Source: an uncultured Bacteroidales bacterium | GTDB lineage: Bacteria > Bacteroidota > Bacteroidia > Bacteroidales > UBA932 | Direction: 5' to 3' | Assembly (NCBI GenBank): GCA_945874155.1 | Contig: CAMCFO010000001.1 | Span: 1-64,000 of the forward strand | Length of the DNA: 64,000 nucleotides | Shown: one piece after another, positions 8,091 through 20,768 of the stretch | Position numbering within the stretch: position 1 is the first letter of the stretch | Layout of the letters: the number at the start of each line of letters is the position of its first letter | The notes under the pieces: generated by a model | What the model saw: only the letters and a program-made list of their open reading frames with translations | Database searches by the model: none | Told to the model about the DNA's origin: nothing | Made by a program: the position numbers and the translations under genes

Positions 8091-9380
8091 CTATATGAAA
8101 TTGAAAATGAAGACCACAATCAGAGTTGCAGGCGCAAGATAGCGGATTGCGAAATACACCAGTTTGTAAATTCCTGTGTTGCAGCTGCCTTTGTTGGTGA
8201 GTTCATCCTGTACAGCGGTCTTGTCCATTTTCCAGCCTACAAAGAGCACTGCAATCAGGGCTCCGAAAATAAGCAGTATGTTGGAGCAGAGATTGTCCAC
8301 GAACCCGAAAATCTCCTGGGAGAATGCGCTTCCGACCCCAATCAGCCATATCACTGAAAACATTATGATGCAGGCTTTCCTGCGGGGGATTCTCTTTTCT
8401 TCCACCAGCCAGGCAATTCCGGGTTCCACAAGGGAAATGGTCGAGGTGAGGGCGGCGACAACTACGGTCAGAAAGAAGAGTACGCTGATTGCCCTGCCCA
8501 GGAAAGGTGAAGCCTGGCCCATCTGAACAAATATTTCAGGGAGGGTTACGAAAAGCAGCCCGGGACCGGATTCAGGGTCGATGCCCTTGGCGAAGACTGC
8601 CGGCATTATGGCGAAGCCTGCGATTATTGCAAAGACAATAGAGGAAATGGCTGTCCAGATGCCTGAGGTCATCATATTTTCCTTTTTGCTGACATAGGAG
8701 GAATAGGTTAGAATGATGCCCGAACCTAAGGACATAGAATAGAAGGACTGGCCTATGGCTGCAACTATGGTCCGGCCTGTGATTTTGGAGAAATCGGGAT
8801 GAATCAGATATTCAACTCCTTTCGTCGCTCCGGGCAGCCTGAGGGCATATATCATTATTATGATTATGAAGAGGAACAGCGCCGGGATGGAGTATTTGCT
8901 GAATTTTTCTATCCCGTTCTTCACCCCGCAGGCCACCACCAGGCAAGTGATACCGAGCATCACCGTGCCGAATGCCAGGGCTTTGTAGCCGGAGGGCAGG
9001 AATTCGCCATAATTCAAATTGAAAGAGCGGAGAAAATATTCCACTGACCATCCGCCCACTATGCTATAATATGAAAGCAGCACGGTGGGGGTTAAAACTG
9101 AAAGTACACCTAAAATGTTCCAAAATGACTTGGGAGCGAGTTTTTTCATGGACCCCACTGCGTTGAGCTGCGCGTGACGGCCGATTACAGCTTCTGCAAG
9201 GAAGATGGGAAGGGATAGTAACAGTGTGCAAATCAGATAGATAAATATGAATGCAGCGCCTCCGTTTTCCCCCGCCATATACGGGAATCTCCATAGGTTT
9301 CCAAGTCCGATGGCAGAGCCTGCATAAGCCATTATGACTGCGAAACTGCTGCCGAAACTGTCTCTTTTTGCTGCTGACAT
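8091..9380 (-). CDS. Neurotransmitter:sodium symporter (SNF) family transporter
   Basis: GSAIGLGNLWRFPYMAGENGGAAF signature at N-terminus; many TM segments. Confidence 0.93.
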   Translation of the reverse strand: MSAAKRDSFGSSFAVIMAYAGSAIGLGNLWRFPYMAGENGGAAFIFIYLICTLLLSLPIFLAEAVIGRHAQLNAVGSMKKLAPKSFWNILGVLSVLTPTVLLSYYSIVGGWSVEYFLRSFNLNYGEFLPSGYKALAFGTVMLGITCLVVACGVKNGIEKFSKYSIPALFLFIIIIMIYALRLPGATKGVEYLIHPDFSKITGRTIVAAIGQSFYSMSLGSGIILTYSSYVSKKENMMTSGIWTAISSIVFAIIAGFAIMPAVFAKGIDPESGPGLLFVTLPEIFVQMGQASPFLGRAISVLFFLTVVVAALTSTISLVEPGIAWLVEEKRIPRRKACIIMFSVIWLIGVGSAFSQEIFGFVDNLCSNILLIFGALIAVLFVGWKMDKTAVQDELTNKGSCNTGIYKLVYFAIRYLAPATLIVVFIFNFI

Positions 9381-9481: not shown

Positions 9482-9553
9482 GCCTCCGTAGTTTAATGGA
9501 TAGAATTTCAGATTCCGGTTCTGACGGTTGCGGTTCGATTCCGCACGGGGGTA
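9482..9553 (+). tRNA. tRNA-Arg(CCG)
   Basis: Cloverleaf folds by hand: acceptor GCCTCCG/CGGGGGT, anticodon stem TCAGA/TCTGA with loop TTCCGGT, T arm TGCGG-TTCGATT-CCGCA. Confidence 0.9.
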
Positions 9554-9628
9554 CAAGTTTTTTCATCCCGCATTTTTTCCGGCTATGTCCGGTATCTTAT
9601 GGGCATCTGAAAAAAATCGATTTTTTCC

Positions 9629-9659
9629 TTTGCAATTGCAAATATCTTTTATATTTTTG
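9629..9659 (+). promoter_or_regulatory. Bacteroidetes consensus promoter of the ilv-leu operon
   Basis: TTTG (9629..9632) - N19 - TATTTTTG (9652..9659), exact match to TTTG-N19-21-TAnnTTTG. Confidence 0.8.
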
Positions 9660-9703
9660 CACTCGCAATTGAGCGGACTTTTCCGCAGTAAATTTTTGGA
9701 ATT

Positions 9704-9772
9704 ATGTTAGTAGTCGTGAACGTCATTAGCTTGCTAGTCCTTGTCATTAAGATAGTTGGACCGGGAAAGTGA
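9704..9772 (+). CDS. Branched-chain amino acid leader peptide (attenuator), MLVVVNVISLLVLVIKIVGPGK
   Basis: 22-codon ORF with 14 Leu/Val/Ile codons ~40 nt after the predicted transcription start, immediately before an ilv terminator-like hairpin. Confidence 0.85.
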   Translation: MLVVVNVISLLVLVIKIVGPGK

Positions 9773-9832
9773 TGGCATCACGTGTGATAAAGCATACTGG
9801 AGCGCTCTTCCCGGAAAATCGGAAAGAGCGCT
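9761..9832 (+). promoter_or_regulatory. Attenuator: terminator hairpin 9801..9832 versus antiterminator pairing 9761..9767 with 9808..9814
   Basis: Terminator stem agcgctcttcccg/cggaaagagcgct with one C.A mismatch; ccgggaa (9761..9767) is complementary to ttcccgg (9808..9814), which lies in the terminator 5' arm and loop. Confidence 0.75.
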
Positions 9833-9866
9833 TCGATATTATTTGAAGTAACAATTTGAAAGGACT

Positions 9867-11699
9867 ATGAAACACGAACTCAGAAGTGCAGTGACCCAAA
9901 ACGGCAGACGAATGGCCGGAGCCAGAGCCCTGTGGATAGCAGCAGGAATGAAGAAGGAACAGATGGGCCGACCGGTAATTGCCGTAGTGAATTCTTTCAC
10001 CCAGTTTGTTCCGGGTCACACTCATCTTCACGAAATAGGCCAGATAGTCAAGGCGGAAATTGAAGCCCAGGGATGTTTTGCAGCTGAGTTCAATACCATC
10101 GCAGTTGATGATGGAATCGCAATGGGCCACGACGGAATGCTCTATTCCCTGCCTTCCAGAGACATCATAGCAGACTCGGTGGAATATATGGTCAATGCCC
10201 ACAAGGCAGACGCGATGATTTGTATAAGCAATTGTGACAAAATCACCCCGGGAATGTTGATTGCTGCAATGAGGCTCAATATCCCTGCGGTTTTCGTGTC
10301 GGGAGGCCCTATGGAGGCAGGAGTTATGGGCTCGCAGAGACTCGACCTGATTGATGCAATGGTGAAGTCCGCAGACCCTTCCGTAAGCGACGAAGATGTT
10401 GCCGAAATTGAAAATTCCGCATGCCCGGGTTGCGGCTGCTGTTCCGGAATGTTCACGGCCAATTCAATGAACTGCCTCACGGAAGCCATAGGCCTTTCAC
10501 TCCCAGGTAACGGCACTGTTGTCGCCACCCATAGCCGGAGAATAGAACTCTTCCGCAAGGCCGCCAGTCTGGTTGTCAGCAACGCATACAAATACTACAG
10601 GGATGGGGACGAGTCCGTGCTGCCCCGCTCAATAGCCACCCGTGGAGCTTTCCTCAATGCAATGGCCCTGGACATAGCTATGGGCGGTTCTACCAATACC
10701 GTGCTTCATCTCCTTGCAGTTGCAAATGAGGCCGGAGCGGACTTCAAGATGTCGGATATAGATGCACTTTCCCGCAGGGTGCCTTGCCTGTGCAAGGTGG
10801 CCCCCAACACCAACAAATATCACGTTCAGGATGTGAACAGGGCAGGCGGGATTGTCACCATTATGAACGAACTTGCAAAAGGCGGTCTTGTGGACACTTC
10901 CCTCAAAAGGGTGGACGGAATGACGCTGGCTGAGGAGATTGACGCATATTGTATTGATAGTCCTAATGTTACGGAAGAGGCAAAAGGCATTTACTCAAGT
11001 GCACCGGCCAACCGTTTCAGCACCCGGATGGGCTCGCAGGACAATGATTATGAAACTTTCGATACGGACCGCAGCGATGGTTGCATCAGAGACCTTGCCC
11101 ACGCCTACACCACAGACGGAGGCCTCGGAGTGCTTTTCGGAAACATAGCAAAGGACGGCTGCGTAATCAAGACCGCCGGAGTGGACAAGTCCATATGGAA
11201 ATTCTCCGGCCCTGCGAAAGTCTTTGATTCTCAGGAGGCTGCCTGTGAGGGAATTTTGGGCGGAAAAGTCAAGGCGGGGGATGTCGTGGTCATAAGTTAC
11301 GAAGGCCCTAAGGGAGGCCCTGGAATGCAGGAAATGCTTTATCCGACCTCCTATATCAAGTCAATGCACCTGGGAAAGGAATGTGCCCTGATAACTGACG
11401 GCCGTTTCAGCGGGGGAACCTCAGGACTCAGCATAGGACATATTTCTCCGGAAGCGGCAGCGGGGGGCAACATTGCCCTGGTACGCGACGGGGACATCAT
11501 AGAAATAGACATACCCGAAAGGAAAATCAACGTCCGTCTCAGCGATGAGGAGCTTCAGCTCAGGCGTGAGGAGGAACTTTCGCGCGGAAAATCGGCATTC
11601 ACGCCTTGGGAGCGCAAAAGGGAAGTTTCAAAGAGCCTCAAAGCCTATGCTGCAATGGTCAGCTCGGCGGACAAGGGTGCAGTCAGGATTATTGAATAG
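9867..11699 (+). CDS. ilvD: Dihydroxy-acid dehydratase
   Basis: [56 protein letters not shown]. Confidence 0.97.
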
Positions 11700-11751: not shown

Positions 11752-13476
11752 ATGGAAACAGACCAGACACAGAACCGGCTTACCGGAGCCGAAATTCTCC
11801 TGCAATCTCTTGTGGAGGAAGGCGTTGACACCGTTTTCGGTTATCCGGGAGGTCAGGTAATGGCCTTGTATGATAAACTTTTAAACTATTCCGACAAGCT
11901 CAGGCATATACTCGTCCGTCACGAGCAGGGAGCCATACACGCGGCCCAGGGCTATGCAAGGGTGAAGAATACCCCCGGAGTTGTCTTCGTTACCTCCGGT
12001 CCGGGCGCGACCAACATCATCACGGGTGTAGCCGACGCAATGTCCGATTCTACCCCGGTTGTGGTGATTACGGGACAGGTGCCCTCCAGTTCTCTCGGAA
12101 CGGACGCATTTCAGGAGGCCGACATCATAGGTCTCACTACTCCTATTTCCAAATGGAATTATCAGATCAGGCGTGCCGAAGACGTGGCCTGGGCAGTGGC
12201 AAGGGCATTCTACATTGCCGGTACAGGCCGTCCGGGACCGGTGGTGCTGGACTTTACCAAGGATGCGCAGACTGGATTTGCCGAGTTCAAGTATTCCAAG
12301 TGCGATTTCATCCGCAGCTATGTGCCTGAGGCTGAGGCTTGTGAGGCTGAGCTTGACGAGGCTGCAAGAATGATAGACCAGTCCTCCAGGCCTTTCGTGG
12401 TCTTCGGTCAGGGCATATTGATGAGCGGGGCAGAACAGGCTCTTATGGATTTTCTCAAGAAAGGGGATATACCGGCAGGTTCCACTCTTCTCGGACTGAG
12501 CGCCCTGCCTTCCGGATTCAGCCATTTCGAGGGTATGCTCGGAATGCACGGCAATCTCGCTCCTAATGTCAAAACCAATGAATGTGACCTGCTCATTGCT
12601 GTGGGTATGCGTTTCGACAACAGGGTGACCGGACCTGTCTCTACTTATGCCCGTCAGGCGAAAGTCATTCATATAGACATAGATGCATCCGAAATAGGCA
12701 AGCTTGTGCCGGTGGACTTGGGCATTAATGCTGATGCGCGCAAAGTTCTCGAGGCCCTGACTGCCAAGATTTCCCGCGCCGACAGGCACGAGTGGAGGGA
12801 GAGTTTCAGACAGGTTAGAAAAGTGGAAGATGAAAGGGTCATCCGTCCGGAACTTGAGCCGGAGACAGGCGACATAAGGATGGGCGAGGTTGTCGATATG
12901 GTTTCCCAAGTTACTGAAAACAAGGCTATTGTGGTCACGGATGTGGGCCAGAACCAGATGGTTGCAGCCAGATATTCCCGTTTCAATCAGACCCGCAGTT
13001 TCATTTCTTCCGGAGGATTGGGCACTATGGGATTCGGCCTTCCTGCAGCCATAGGCGCAAAAATCGCAGACCCGTCAAGACCCGTTTGCCTTTTCTGTGG
13101 AGACGGAGGTATTCAGATGACCATCGAGGAACTGGGAGTGGTGATGCAGGAAAATGTCGGAGTCAAAGTTGTCATACTCAACAACAACTGGCTCGGCAAT
13201 GTGAGACAGTGGCAGGAGATGTTCTTTGACCGCCGTTATTCCGCAACCAGGATGATGAATCCGGACTACACTCTGATTGCCCGGGCATATGGCATTGACA
13301 GTGAGGTGGTTGATTCCCGTGAGGAATTGAGGGGAGCCGTGCATAGGCTTTTCGCTGACGAGCGCGCCCGCATTCTCATAGTCCACGTTGCGGAACAGGA
13401 AAATGTGATGCCTATGATTCCGCCGGGCAAAAGTGTCAACGAGATAATGATTTCTGAAACTCAATGGTATAAGTAA
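11752..13476 (+). CDS. ilvB: Acetolactate synthase large subunit
   Basis: TPP enzyme: VFGYPGGQVMALYD, GPGATN, GDGGIQMTIEELGVVMQENVGVKVVILNNNWLGNVRQWQ. Confidence 0.97.
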   Translation: METDQTQNRLTGAEILLQSLVEEGVDTVFGYPGGQVMALYDKLLNYSDKLRHILVRHEQGAIHAAQGYARVKNTPGVVFVTSGPGATNIITGVADAMSDSTPVVVITGQVPSSSLGTDAFQEADIIGLTTPISKWNYQIRRAEDVAWAVARAFYIAGTGRPGPVVLDFTKDAQTGFAEFKYSKCDFIRSYVPEAEACEAELDEAARMIDQSSRPFVVFGQGILMSGAEQALMDFLKKGDIPAGSTLLGLSALPSGFSHFEGMLGMHGNLAPNVKTNECDLLIAVGMRFDNRVTGPVSTYARQAKVIHIDIDASEIGKLVPVDLGINADARKVLEALTAKISRADRHEWRESFRQVRKVEDERVIRPELEPETGDIRMGEVVDMVSQVTENKAIVVTDVGQNQMVAARYSRFNQTRSFISSGGLGTMGFGLPAAIGAKIADPSRPVCLFCGDGGIQMTIEELGVVMQENVGVKVVILNNNWLGNVRQWQEMFFDRRYSATRMMNPDYTLIARAYGIDSEVVDSREELRGAVHRLFADERARILIVHVAEQENVMPMIPPGKSVNEIMISETQWYK

Positions 13477-13517: not shown

Positions 13518-14063
13518 ATGGACAACACGGTTCGAAGATATACGGTAGTTCTGCACTCCGAAAACCAGATCGGTGTGCTCAACCAGGTGGCCAACATATT
13601 CACCAGACATAGCCTGAATATGTCCAGTATGTCTGCAAACGCCTCCCCGCTGGAGGGAATTCACACGATTTCCATAGTTACCTACACCGTGGAGAAGAAA
13701 ATTATCGAGGTGGTGCAACAGCTGGAGAAGAAGGTGGACATAGTGAGGGCCTTTTACTATTCCGACGAACAGACCGTCTATAGGGAACTTGCCCTGTACA
13801 AAGTGCCGACAGACAAGATTATAGGCTCCGGCAACATAGAGGACATACTCCAGGGCTATTATGCAAAAATCATAGAAATCAACAGGGACTTCACGGTAAT
13901 TTCCAAGGTCGGCACCACTGAGGAAACTCAGCAGCTCTACAACGAGCTCAGCCGTTTCGGGGTGATGCAGTTCCAGCGTTCCGGCCAGATTATGGTCTCC
14001 CGCGAGAAACAGGAGCCCCTTTACAAATATCTTGAAGAAAGAGAAAAAGTTAAATCCAAATAA
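13518..14063 (+). CDS. ilvN: Acetolactate synthase small (regulatory) subunit, ACT domain
   Basis: YTVVLHSENQIGVLNQVANIFTRHSLNMSSM; between ilvB and ilvC. Confidence 0.93.
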   Translation: MDNTVRRYTVVLHSENQIGVLNQVANIFTRHSLNMSSMSANASPLEGIHTISIVTYTVEKKIIEVVQQLEKKVDIVRAFYYSDEQTVYRELALYKVPTDKIIGSGNIEDILQGYYAKIIEINRDFTVISKVGTTEETQQLYNELSRFGVMQFQRSGQIMVSREKQEPLYKYLEEREKVKSK

Positions 14064-14075
14064 TTGTTCAAAATT

Positions 14076-15119
14076 ATGGCAAAGATTAATTTTGGTGGTG
14101 TAGAAGAAAATGTCATCACTCGTGAAGAATTCACACTCGAACAGGCAAGGGAAACACTCAAAGGCGAGACCATCGCTGTCATTGGTTACGGCGTGCAGGG
14201 GCCGGGTCAGTCTTTGAACCTCAGGGACAATGGTTTCAACGTGATCGTGGGCCAGCGTCCGGGCAAAACCTACGACAAGGCAGTAGCTGACGGTTGGGTG
14301 CCGGGCGAGACTCTTTTCGGCATTGAGGAAGCTTGCGAAAAGGGTACCATCATTATGTGCCTGCTTTCAGATGCAGCAGTGATGTCCGTATGGCCACGCA
14401 TCAAACCTTACCTCACTCCGGGCAAGGCTCTGTATTTCTCACACGGTTTCGCAATCACCTGGAGCGACCGCACAGGCTGTGTGCCTCCTGCTGACGTGGA
14501 CGTGATTATGGTGGCTCCTAAGGGTTCAGGCACAACTGTGCGTTCACTCTATCTCGAAGGCCGCGGAATCAATGCATCCTTTGCTGTATATCAGGATGTT
14601 ACAGGCCGTGCATACGAGCGCACCGTAGCCCTCGGCATAGGCATAGGTTCAGGATATCTTTTCGAGACCACCTTCCAGAGAGAGGCAGTTTCAGACCTCA
14701 CAGGAGAGCGCGGATCTCTTATGGGTGCAATCCAGGGCCTGCTTCAGGCACAGTACGAAGTGCTCCGCGAGCACGGTCACACTCCGAGCGAGGCCTTCAA
14801 TGAGACAGTTGAGGAACTTACCCAGTCTCTTATGCCGCTGTTTGCCCAGAAGGGTATGGACTGGATGTATGCAAACTGCTCAACTACAGCCCAGAGGGGT
14901 GCCCTTGACTGGTATCCTCGTTTCCACGATGCCATCAAGCCTGTAGTGGAGCAGCTCTACGAGAGCGTGCAGAATGGAACAGAGGCTCAGATTTCCATTG
15001 ATTCCAACTCCAAGCCGGACTATCGCGAGGGTCTTGAGAAGGAGCTCAAAGTCCTCAGGGACAGCGAGATGTGGAAGACTGCGGAGACAGTTCGCACACT
15101 CCGTCCGGAGAATAAGTAA
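14076..15119 (+). CDS. ilvC: Ketol-acid reductoisomerase
   Basis: [36 protein letters not shown] at 14076 preferred over TTG 14064. Confidence 0.96.
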
Positions 15120-15130
15120 TCTCCTGCATT

Positions 15131-16633
15131 ATGGACAAGAATCGAGTCTATTTCTTTGACACAACCCTGAGGGACGGGGAGCAGGTGCCGGGATGCCAGC
15201 TGAATACGGTTGAGAAAATCCAGGTGGCCAAGGCTCTCGAGTCCCTCGGAGTCGATGTTATCGAGGCGGGTTTTCCGGTGTCCAGTCCGGGGGATTTCAA
15301 TTCCGTCATCGAGATTTCCAAGGCTGTGACCTGGCCTTCAGTCTGCGCCCTCACCAGAGCTGTGCAGAAGGATATCGATGTGGCTGTGGATGCCCTCAAA
15401 TATGCAAAGCGCAAGAGAATCCACACCGGAATAGGCACTTCCGACTCGCATATCAGATACAAGTTCAACTCCAACCGTGAGGAAATCCTGGAGAGGGCTG
15501 TGAAGGCCGTGAAATATGCCAGGAATTTTGTGGACGAGGTGGAATTCTATGCAGAGGATGCTGGAAGGACCGAGAATGAGTATCTTGCAAGAGTAATTGA
15601 AGCTGTGATAGCCGCAGGTGCGACCGTAGTCAACATACCTGACACAACGGGCTATTGTCTTCCTGCAGAATATGGGGCAAAAATCAAGTACCTGTGTGAC
15701 AATGTGCCCAATATCGAAAACGCCATCATCTCAACCCACTGCCACAACGACCTCGGAATGGCAACCGCCAACACTATGGCAGGACTCCTGAATGGAGCGC
15801 GCCAGTGTGAGGTGACCATCAACGGAGTGGGCGAGAGGGCCGGCAACACCTCCCTTGAGGAAATAGCGATGATCATCAAGTCCCACAACGACATAGACCT
15901 GCAGTCCAATATCAACACCACGAGGATTTATCCTGTGAGCCGTATGGTTTCCAACTTGATGAATATGCCGGTGCAGCCCAACAAGGCCATAGTGGGACGC
16001 AATGCCTTTGCCCATTCCTCCGGCATACATCAGGACGGCGTGCTCAAGAATGTCTCCACCTATGAAATCATAGATCCGAAAGACATAGGTCTGGACACCA
16101 ATTCCATAGTCCTCACGGCCCGTAGCGGTCACGCGGCACTGAAATACCGTCTGGAGTCTCTCGGAGTCAAGCTCAGCGAGGAAAAGCTGGACAAGGTATA
16201 TCAGGAGTTCCTCAAACTTGCGGACAAGAAAAAGGAAGTCTGCGATGACGACATCCTTATGCTTGCAGGTGCGGACCGCAGTCACGAGCAGGTCATCAAG
16301 GTGGACTGGCTGCAGGCCACCAGCGGCATAGGAATGAAACCCGTGGCATCCATAGGAGTGGATATAGCCGGGGAGAAATTCGAGGCGGCCGCAACTGGAA
16401 ACGGTCCTGTGGATGCTTCCATCAATGCCCTCAGGCAAATCGTCAAACGCAAAATCAACATCAACGAATTCACAATCCAGGGTGTCACCAAGGGTTCCGA
16501 CGACTCCTGCAAGGTGCATATGCAGGTGGAGCACGAAGGGCGGATTTATTACGGCTTCGGGTCCAACACGGACATTGTCACCGCTTCGGTGGAGGCCTAT
16601 GTGGATTGTGTGAACAAAATCCACAGCGTCTGA
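15131..16633 (+). CDS. leuA: 2-isopropylmalate synthase
   Basis: [34 protein letters not shown]-terminal LeuA regulatory domain. Confidence 0.96.
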
Positions 16634-16634
16634 G

Positions 16635-18029
16635 ATGAATACCCTATTCGACAAAATCTGGGACTCCCATATTGTGGACCGCATTGAGGACGGCCCTCAG
16701 CAGATCTATATCGACAGACTCTACTGCCACGAAGTGACCTCACCACAGGCTTTCGAAGGCCTGCGTGCAAGGGGCATCAAGTGTTTCCGTCCGGAGAGAA
16801 TTTTCTGTATGCCGGACCACAACACCCCCACCCACGATCAGGACAAACCGGTTCAGGATCCGGTTTCGCGGAAACAGCTGGAGACATTGGATGCAAATGT
16901 CAGGGAATTCGGACTGACATATTTCGGGATGATGGATCCGCGCAACGGCATAATCCACGTGGTGGGGCCGGAGCAGGGACTGTCTCTTCCCGGTATGACC
17001 ATAGTCTGCGGAGACTCGCACACATCCACCCACGGAGCTGTGGGCGCAATAGCCTTCGGAATCGGAACCAGCGAGGTGGAAATGGTGATGGCCTCCCAAT
17101 GCATACTCCAGTCCAAGCCCAAGTCTATGAGAATCAAAGTGGAGGGCAAATTGGGCAAGGGAGTGACAGCCAAGGATTTGGCTCTTTACATAATGAAGCA
17201 GATCAGCACTTCTGGTGCCACAGGTTATTTCGTGGAATATGCCGGAAGTGCAGTCCGGAGCCTGACTATGGAAGGCCGTCTTACCCTCTGCAACCTTTCC
17301 ATAGAAATGGGGGCGAGGGGAGGATTCGTGGCACCGGACGAGACCACTTTCGCCTACCTCAAGGGCCGCCCGTATTCACCGAAAGGGGATGATTGGGACA
17401 AGGCTGTGGAATATTGGAAGAGCTTGCGCAGCGATGATGATGCTGTGTTTGACAAGGAGATTGTTTTCGATGCAGCCGACATCAAGCCTATGATAACCTA
17501 CGGCACCAATCCGGGAATGGGAGTTGAGGTGTCGGGCAGAGTGCCTGCACTTGAATCCATACCGGAGCAGGGGCGTGAATCCTTCTGCAAGTCGCTGGAT
17601 TATATGGATTTTCATCCTGGGGATGCGATGATTGGCAAGAAGGTGGACTATGTCTTCCTCGGGGCTTGCACCAATGGCAGGATTGAGGATTTCAGGGCAT
17701 TTGCCTCCATCGCGGCAGGCCGTCACAAAGCTGAGAATGTCGTTGCCTGGCTGGTTCCGGGGTCTTGGGCAGTTATGGAGCAAATCAAGGACGAGGGACT
17801 GGATAAGGTGCTGGAAGCTGCAGGTTTTGAAATCCGTCAGCCGGGTTGTTCGGCCTGTCTGGCTATGAATGACGACAAGGTGCCTGCAGGAAAATACTGT
17901 GTCTCAACCAGCAACCGCAATTTCGAAGGCCGTCAGGGACAGGGGGCAAGAACCCTTCTCGCCAGCCCTCTAACTGCGGCTGCAGCAGCAGTAACCGGTT
18001 GTGTCACAGATCCAAGAGATTTACTATGA
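16635..18029 (+). CDS. leuC: 3-isopropylmalate dehydratase large subunit
   Basis: [53 protein letters not shown]. Confidence 0.96.
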
Positions 18030-18640
18030 AACAGAAATTCAATATTATCGAAAGTACCTGCGTGCCTCTGAAGGTGGAGAATGTGGACACGGACCAGATC
18101 ATCCCGGCCCGCTTTCTCAAGGCGACCACAAAGGACGAAAAATATTTTGGCGATATGCTGTTCAGGGACTGGAGATTCGATGCTGAAGACAAGCCTAAAC
18201 CGGATTTTGTTCTCAACCGTCCGGAGTTTTCTGCCTTTCCTGCCGAGGGAGTGCATCAGATTCTGGTGGCAGGCAAGAACTTCGGCAACGGCTCCAGCCG
18301 TGAACACGCTGCCTGGGCCCTGGCCGGATATGGATTCAGGGTGGTGATTTCCAGCTTTTTCGCCGACATCCACAAGAATAACGAATTGAACAATTTCGTG
18401 CTTCCTGTAGTGGTGCCCGAGGATTTTCTTCAGGAGCTTTTCGATACCATTGAAGCTGACAGCGAGGCCAGAGTGAGGGTGGATGTGCCGTCCCAGCGAG
18501 TTACCAATCTCACCACAGGCCGCCAGGAAAGCTTCGAACTGAATGCGTACAAGAAGTATTGTCTGATGAATGCCCTTGATGACATTGACTATCTTCTTGA
18601 AAATCAGGATAAAATAATTGCATACGAGAATAAGAGATGA
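18026..18640 (+). CDS. leuD: 3-isopropylmalate dehydratase small subunit
   Basis: [36 protein letters not shown] overlap with leuC. Confidence 0.95.
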
Positions 18641-19713
18641 AACTTCGAATAGCAAGGCTTCCGGGTGACGGAATAGGACCCGAAGTGGTGGAACAGGCCG
18701 TAAAGGCCGTGGATGCCGTTTGCGCAAGCTTCGGACACGAGGCTGAATATGCTCACGGCTTTGTGGGAGCCTGTGCCATAGACAGATATGGAGATCCGTT
18801 TCCGGAAGAGACTTTCCGTCTGTGTATGGATTCCGATGCTGTGCTTTTCGGCGCAGTGGGGGATCCCAAATATGACAATGATCCCACTGCCAAAGTGCGT
18901 CCCGAACAGGGATTGCTTGCAATGCGCAAGAAACTGGGCCTCTATGCCAATCTGCGTCCGGTCGAGACTTTCAAGTCTCTGGTGCACAAATCTCCCCTTA
19001 AGGAACATCTTGTGGACGGAGCAGACTTTCTGTGTGTCAGGGAATTGACCGGAGGAATGTATTTCGGGGAAAAGGGCCGCAGGGATGATGGCGACACTGC
19101 CTACGACACCAATCTCTATCACCGTTACGAAATCGAAAGAATCCTCAGACTCTCCTATGATTACGCCAGGCGCAGACGCAGACACCTGACCGTGGTGGAC
19201 AAGGCAAACGTGCTGGAGTCTTCCCGTCTCTGGAGGCAGATTGCTCAGGAAATGGCCCCGCAGTATCCGGATGTGACCACCGACTATATGTATGTGGACA
19301 ATGCCGCTATGAAACTCGTTACGGGACCGAAGTTCTTCGATGTGATGGTGACTGAAAACACCTTCGGAGACATACTCACGGACGAGGCAAGTTGCATTTC
19401 CGGTTCTATGGGACTGCTGGCATCGGCATCGGTGGGGGAACATACCTCAGTTTTCGAACCCATTCACGGCTCTTATCCCCAGGCGGCAGGCAAGGACATA
19501 GCCAATCCTGTGGCTACCATACTTTCGGCTGCGATGATGTTCGAATATGCTTTCGGACTTATGGACGAGGGGAAGGCAATCAGGGAGGCTGTGGCAGCTT
19601 CGCTTGAAGCCGGAGTGGTGACAGAAGACCTTGCAGATGGAGGTCCTGCGTATGGCACTGCTGCTGTGGGAGACTGGATTGCATCATATATTTCGGAAAA
19701 GAATAATAAATAA
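18637..19713 (+). CDS. leuB: 3-isopropylmalate dehydrogenase
   Basis: [55 protein letters not shown]. Confidence 0.96.
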
Positions 19714-19724
19714 ATCAAATAGTT

Positions 19725-20768
19725 ATGGCAAATATTGATTGGGATAAACTGGGCTTTGATGCCTATAGGACCAAGACTCTGGTCTTGGCAAGATGGAAGA
19801 ACGGACAGTGGTCCGAAATCACTGAAACTGACGAGTTCCAGTTTGTTCTGGACCCTTTCACTTGTGTTTTTCACTATTCCTTCGCCTGCTTTGAGGGTTT
19901 GAAGGCTTTCACCCAGAAAGATGGCAAGGTAGTGCTCTTCCGTCCATACGAGAATGCACACAGGATGCAGAGGTCTGCACGCTTTCTCGGACTTCCGGAG
20001 CCTTCCGACGAAATGTTCGTTCAGATGTGCGAGATGGCTGTGAAGGCAAACCGGGAGTTTCTACCTCCTTATGGTCACGACGCTTCCCTTTATGTGCGGC
20101 CTTTGCTTATGGGAGCACAGCCCAAGATGCAGCTTACCCCTCCTAATGAAGTGATTTTTGCGGTGATGGTGGCTCCGGCAGGCAGTTACTACGGAGCCAA
20201 TATGAAGTCTTTCTCCGCAGTGATTCCTCTAAATTACGACCGTGCGGCTCCTAAAGGTTCAGGCAGTTACAAAGTGGCTGCGAACTACGCCTCCACTTTC
20301 AGGCCGTATCAGATAGCTCACGAACAGGGCCATATGGAACTGCTCTATCTCAATTCCAGCACTCACGAATTTATCGATGAGTTCGGTTCTTCCAATTTCT
20401 TCGGTATCAAGAACAATACTTATGTCACTCCGCTTTCGGACAGCGTGCTGCCTTCCATCACCAACAAGTGTCTGCAGGAGATTGCCGCAGACCTCGGACT
20501 TAAGGTGGAGAAGAGACCAGTGCGTCTTGAGGAACTTGAGGAGTTCGAGGAGGTGGGAGGCTGCGGCACTGCAGTGGTCATCAATCCTATGTCTCATATA
20601 GAGGTCAAGGAAGTTCTTGAGGAAGAACCTGTCAAGAAGGTTTACCGCTTCTGCCCTGACGGCGAGGTGGGACCTGTCAGCACCCGTCTGTATAAAACCA
20701 TCACCGGTATTCAGAAAGGTGAGATTGAGGACATCCACGGCTGGTGCCACGAGATTAAGGATTTCTGA
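19725..20768 (+). CDS. ilvE: Branched-chain amino acid aminotransferase
   Basis: YSFACFEGLKAF; SLYVRPLLMG; VKKVYRFCPDGEVGPVSTRLYKTITGIQKGE. Confidence 0.94.
   Translation: MANIDWDKLGFDAYRTKTLVLARWKNGQWSEITETDEFQFVLDPFTCVFHYSFACFEGLKAFTQKDGKVVLFRPYENAHRMQRSARFLGLPEPSDEMFVQMCEMAVKANREFLPPYGHDASLYVRPLLMGAQPKMQLTPPNEVIFAVMVAPAGSYYGANMKSFSAVIPLNYDRAAPKGSGSYKVAANYASTFRPYQIAHEQGHMELLYLNSSTHEFIDEFGSSNFFGIKNNTYVTPLSDSVLPSITNKCLQEIAADLGLKVEKRPVRLEELEEFEEVGGCGTAVVINPMSHIEVKEVLEEEPVKKVYRFCPDGEVGPVSTRLYKTITGIQKGEIEDIHGWCHEIKDF

Follow-up and report, generated by a model that had tools for sequence, protein, structure and literature searches.

How is branched-chain amino acid synthesis controlled in an uncultured member of the Bacteroidales? 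This question is raised by the region before ilvD in the window (the whole 64,000-nucleotide stretch of DNA that was analysed), where a short ORF rich in Leu, Val and Ile codons precedes a terminator-like hairpin. An earlier note on this DNA had read the arrangement as the attenuation logic of the E. coli ilv, leu, his and trp operons. That reading is supported by the conservation of the leader and its pairing in relatives, and the region is very probably a ribosome-mediated transcription attenuator of the ilv-leu operon that responds to branched-chain amino acids.

Gene content, promoter and leader peptide

The nine genes downstream are all on one strand and, by NCBIfam, follow the order ilvD-ilvB-ilvN-ilvC-leuA-leuC-leuD-leuB-ilvE (Table 1). 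They encode the branched-chain enzymes from acetolactate synthase through to the aminotransferase, plus the leucine branch. This gene content bears out the nine-gene operon that the earlier note had placed under the attenuator. Co-transcription is suggested by the close spacing of the genes and is still an inference. On the same strand as the promoter, a tRNA-Arg(CCG) gene (9482-9554) lies just 5' of it and is preceded by a divergent sodium-dependent transporter gene (8091-9380).

Table 1. Positions of the regulatory features before ilvD and of the downstream genes in the window.
Feature	Position	Strand	Details
Bacteroidota-type promoter	9629..9659	+	TTTG 9629-9632, 19-nt spacer, TATTTTTG 9652-9659; read from sequence
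Leader peptide ORF	9704..9772	+	ATG 9704, stop 9770-9772, 22 aa, peptide MLVVVNVISLLVLVIKIVGPGK
Possible protector hairpin (region 1:2)	9722..9776	+	MFE fold of leader; weak candidate
Region 2, antiterminator segment CCGGGAA	9761..9767	+	End of leader ORF; equivalent pairing in relatives
Terminator hairpin (region 3:4)	9799..9834	+	14 pairs, one C.A mismatch, -22.2 kcal/mol; counterparts in relatives
Region 3, TTCCCGG	9808..9814	+	Common to antiterminator and terminator 5' arm
Poor U-tract after hairpin	9835..9847	+	GATATTATTTGAA; longest T run 3
ilvD, dihydroxy-acid dehydratase	9867..11699	+	NF009103/TIGR00110 over cut-off
ilvB, acetolactate synthase large subunit	11752..13476	+	TIGR00118 over cut-off
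ilvN, acetolactate synthase small subunit	13518..14063	+	TIGR00119 over cut-off
ilvC, ketol-acid reductoisomerase	14064..15119	+	TIGR00465 over cut-off; true start may be 3' of listed TTG
leuA, 2-isopropylmalate synthase	15131..16633	+	TIGR00973 over cut-off
leuC, 3-isopropylmalate dehydratase large subunit	16635..18029	+	TIGR00170 over cut-off
leuD, 3-isopropylmalate dehydratase small subunit	17999..18640	+	TIGR00171 over cut-off; ORF as listed, homology from residue 12
leuB, 3-isopropylmalate dehydrogenase	18637..19713	+	TIGR00169 over cut-off
ilvE, branched-chain amino acid aminotransferase	19725..20768	+	TIGR01123 over cut-off

The consensus promoter described in the earlier note is borne out. 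The same element (TTG-N17-24-TAnnTTTG, the -33/-7 element) precedes the leader in 66 of the 84 relatives' loci that have one, compared to 1.4% of shuffles. In the relatives, the median distance between the -7 box and the leader start is 24 nt. In the window, transcription would be expected to start near 9667. A sigma-70 consensus scan of the region finds no promoter, which is the expected outcome for a promoter of the Bacteroidota type. The sole terminator-like site from the sigma-70/terminator scan is a small hairpin 5' of the leader (9673-9686).

The leader has the position, length and composition that had been claimed for it. Its 22 residues include 4 Leu, 7 Val and 3 Ile. When the 260 nt preceding ilvD were dinucleotide-shuffled 4000 times, no shuffle equalled this total of 14. 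The Leu/Val/Ile content is also among the highest of the ilvD leader set.

At the Rfam gathering threshold, no leader, T-box or riboswitch family is found in this region and the whole window yields two tRNAs only. Control of the operon by a T-box or metabolite riboswitch was therefore rejected. Such an element would suit the position between the promoter and the first gene of an amino acid operon, but the leader ORF and its pairing account for the region, and this alternative is extremely improbable.

Predicted competing hairpins in the window copy

The sequence from 9666 to 9866 folds better than its own shuffles (z = -4.4). In the terminator hairpin, 11 outer pairs enclose the C.A mismatch (C9810, A9823), which is followed by 3 inner pairs. 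The earlier note had correctly identified the hairpin and its single mismatch but placed it at 9801..9832 with 12 pairs; the extent and pair count obtained by folding are those in Table 1.

Regions 2 and 3 are exactly complementary, as the earlier note stated. The 7-mer complementarity alone is moderately beyond chance (6 of 100 leader-segment shuffles equal it). The 7-bp pairing is convincing because the arrangement is conserved in relatives, not by virtue of the 7-mer itself. The 7-bp core is incompatible with 5 of the 14 pairs of the terminator; formation of a pseudoknot could, in principle, allow the nine outer pairs (9799-9807 with 9826-9834) to persist alongside it. The claim that antiterminator and terminator cannot form together is thus correct as to the clash, but full exclusion is too strong for the window copy. 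The best antiterminator fold is a longer, imperfect hairpin (-22.4 kcal/mol) that reaches over the arm to 9793. In the folding model without a ribosome, region 2 is paired upstream with a probability of 0.35 when region 3 emerges.

The hairpin is followed by a poor U-tract (GATATTATTTGA), in which no T run exceeds 3. A T run of at least 4 follows the stem in 76 of the 84 relatives, and 8 of the 84 loci have runs of 3 or fewer. Of the features of an intrinsic terminator, the window copy has a strong stem (-22.2 kcal/mol) and a poor U-tract, and most relatives have both a stem and a T-tract. Because its U-tract is weaker than in most relatives, termination is the least certain step in the window copy. 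An alternative is that the leader and switch are the same but produce little intrinsic termination here, with the hairpin acting through Rho or on mRNA stability and the response being weak or post-transcriptional. This would be consistent with the short T run, which is shared by only 8 of the 84 loci. It is nonetheless unlikely, given the strength of the stem, the ordinary T-tracts of most relatives, and the retention of leader and pairing at loci with short T runs (L060, L064 and L092).

Conservation of leader and pairing in the Bacteroidales

The search for ilvD covered 61 relatives and 395 genomes of the same order, and genomes with a match supplied additional upstream regions. Many genomes of the same genus have no ilvD match. 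In total, 111 ilvD upstream regions were scored, with minus-strand loci turned to gene orientation. To count as a leader, a short ORF had to have 8 or more Leu/Val/Ile within 12 codons.

A Leu/Val/Ile-rich leader is present in 84 of the 111 upstream regions, compared to 258 of 6660 shuffles (3.9%); the 84 loci are mutually related and are not 84 independent observations, although many families are represented. Examples of these leaders are MNNVLHIILVVVLLVISR (L034, L035), MFHTSLIIVISVLVLLVIQ (L006) and MKNLLNIVLVVVVVISEMK (L022). Species with a leader include Bacteroides graminisolvens, Phocaeicola faecalis, Heminiphilus faecis, Odoribacter laneus and Bacteroides propionicigenes. The leader mostly starts 140-200 nt before ilvD, and the layout and the class of peptide are kept. 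Across relatives, it is the composition of the leader that is conserved and not its sequence. The remaining 27 upstream regions do not contain a Leu/Val/Ile-rich leader (including L007, L009, L010, L046 and L047).

In three loci (L083, L092 and L025), two Leu/Val/Ile-rich leaders appear to stand in tandem before ilvD. In L083, a separate hairpin and T-tract come after each leader, and the locus resembles two consecutive complete attenuators.

In 70 of the 84 loci, the sequence surrounding the stop codon of the leader pairs with the 5' arm of the terminator and does so better than 95% of shuffled segments. Each of these 70 loci has a terminator-like hairpin, mostly with T-tracts. Because terminators share a weak common consensus, each terminator arm was also paired with leader segments of other species. 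This own-versus-foreign comparison took the place of a covariance model, since the stems are too variable for a sound alignment. The mean pairing energy is -13.0 kcal/mol with a locus's own leader segment and -6.5 kcal/mol with the segments of other species. Across loci, own segments have a median rank of 6%; the window copy ranks at 14% and is not among the strongest. Pairs in which both sides have changed include CGGACTGGGAAGG:CCTTCTCAGTCCG (L002), GGAGGGCTG:CAGCCCTCC (L011), AATCGGTATG:CATGCCGATT (L021) and GTGAGAGAATG:CATTCTCTTAC (L022). Such co-changing segments are what would be expected of an antiterminator/terminator switch under selection.

The earlier note had proposed alignment with related Bacteroidales as a check on the leader and pairings. 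In that comparison layout, spacing, peptide class and co-changing pairs are all found to be kept. It is this comparative evidence, with leaders in 84 of 111 regions and pairing that is specific to each species, that decides in favor of an attenuator.

The comparison also bears on whether the window copy is decaying, i.e., whether the attenuator was functional in an ancestor and read-through is now constitutive. Regions 2 and 3 of the window have both diverged from those of relatives and are still exactly complementary. The window copy also has a matching promoter, one of the most stable terminator stems and one of the leaders richest in Leu/Val/Ile, although its antiterminator core is short and its U-tract weak compared to loci of the same genus (such as L002 and L004). 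Maintenance is favored by the strong stem, the intact leader and the divergence of two regions that remain complementary, and decay is a quite improbable explanation.

Ribosome position and the proposed switch

For the window copy we infer stalling, termination with its efficiency, and an amino acid response along the following lines. RNA polymerase would start near 9667 and a ribosome would begin the 22-codon leader. Under a shortage of charged Leu-, Val- or Ile-tRNA, the ribosome would stall at about codons 2-15, leaving region 2 free to pair with region 3 once this has emerged. The 2:3 pairing would delay the terminator and the polymerase would continue into ilvD. When amino acids are plentiful, the ribosome would proceed to the stop codon and cover region 2, the terminator hairpin would form and transcription would stop just 3' of it.

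A simple occlusion model, in which the ribosome is assumed to hide 12 nt past the first A-site base, was used to fold the RNA for two positions of the polymerase. At the position where region 3 has newly emerged, the modeled probability of 2:3 pairing is 0.83-0.93 with the ribosome at codons 1-7 and approximately 0.97 at codons 8-15. The probability is 0.82 at codon 16, falls to 0.08 at codon 17 and is 0 from codon 18 to the stop. By this profile, starvation can be sensed at 12 of the 14 Leu/Val/Ile codons, the exceptions being codons 17 and 18. The Leu/Val/Ile codons within codons 2-15 are thus the likely sensing codons in the model. The earlier note had claimed that a ribosome stalled on Leu/Val/Ile codons frees region 2; under the occlusion model this is true up to approximately codon 16, but not for every such codon. 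Its claim that a ribosome at the stop covers region 2 agrees with the modeled absence of 2:3 pairing there.

Without a ribosome, 2:3 pairing in the same model is still 0.48, and the protector 1:2 hairpin is weakly supported for this reason. Once the whole hairpin has been transcribed, the terminator is favored at every ribosome position in the model. The outcome must therefore be decided kinetically, and classic attenuators have been modeled in kinetic terms (PMC1183508).

Similar leaders at other operons and in the wider phylum

Short leaders of a corresponding kind precede other amino acid biosynthesis genes in the relatives. In the hisG upstream regions (L228-L250), short ORFs with runs of 4-7 His are found in most of the relatives examined (e.g., L233, L240 and L248), for example MNNTLHHHHHHCNSSR (L233) and MRFYSRHRVHHHHHHLSG (L240). 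These are probably histidine attenuators. Short leaders containing WWW precede trpE in L199, L200, L202, L205 and L206, for example MNNSNLHIWWWHNSGIKP (L205), and are probably tryptophan attenuators. The window's own genome (completeness approximately 98%) has no match to hisG or trpE. The species may need external histidine and tryptophan while keeping branched-chain synthesis.

Runs of His ahead of hisG and of Trp ahead of trpE are in keeping with codon sensing rather than membrane insertion. This is relevant to the idea that the ORF before ilvD encodes a functional small hydrophobic membrane peptide, to which the hairpin is unrelated. The peptide is indeed very hydrophobic, but across relatives its composition is conserved and its sequence is not, and its stop-codon region pairs with the arm of the hairpin. 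There is hardly any likelihood that this idea is correct, and the attenuator remains the preferred reading.

A search of the phylum with the window ilvD protein at an E-value of 1e-150 returned only its own match. With TIGR00110, more distant ilvD genes were found, several of them with Leu/Ile-rich leaders. Candidate leaders of this kind, Leu/Ile-rich short ORFs, occur before distant ilvD genes in L252, L253, L256, L259 and L278, and several contain an IILLGIIIL-like stretch. The evidence is about evenly balanced on whether leader-peptide attenuation is the default control of branched-chain, histidine and tryptophan operons across the Bacteroidales and perhaps across all Bacteroidota, a phylum seemingly without an experimental test of it, with some lineages stacking two attenuators.

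Relation to known attenuators

In E. coli and Salmonella, ilvGMEDA and leuABCD are controlled by leader-peptide attenuators. The window copy is similar to these in having a leader rich in the regulated amino acids with the biosynthetic operon downstream, and an antiterminator in which the end of the leader pairs with the 5' arm of the terminator. It differs in belonging to another phylum and having another type of promoter, and the likeness is one of layout. It also has one fused ilv-leu operon behind a single leader that combines Leu, Val and Ile codons, and its 1:2 hairpin and U-tract are weak. Comparative predictions of leader-peptide attenuators of amino acid operons were reportedly made by Vitreschak et al. 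in 2004, with some cases in the Bacteroidetes/Chlorobi, and are said to have been made by Lopatovskaya et al. in 2010.

Within the same order, the long 5' UTRs of Bacteroides thetaiotaomicron contain short ORFs reminiscent of attenuation leader peptides, whose existence was left for validation (PMC7366714); the worked example there is BT_4401 and not ilvD. Reported branched-chain attenuators outside the Proteobacteria include an ilvBNC attenuator in Corynebacterium (PMC10272879, PMC11857589) and a leucine-rich attenuator peptide in Staphylococcus aureus (PMC5794164). These are from unrelated phyla and are likened to the window copy by description. According to a 2010 survey, Proteobacteria and Actinobacteria were the only groups in which its authors knew leader peptide systems to have been demonstrated (PMC2965389). 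The open-access literature yielded no paper or experimental study on an ilvD attenuator in the Bacteroidales, which is weak evidence of novelty as subscription papers are mostly outside it.

The attenuation mechanism itself is textbook, and its lineage-wide use in the Bacteroidales is the more interesting result. The leader draws attention to very short genes, which are prone to loss at size cut-offs. Translation initiation in the Bacteroidota is largely Shine-Dalgarno-independent. Despite this, attenuation implies that in the Bacteroidales ribosomes trail RNA polymerase closely enough for the switch to work. For this major group of the animal gut, the locus would provide a clear and testable mechanism for the control of branched-chain amino acid synthesis.
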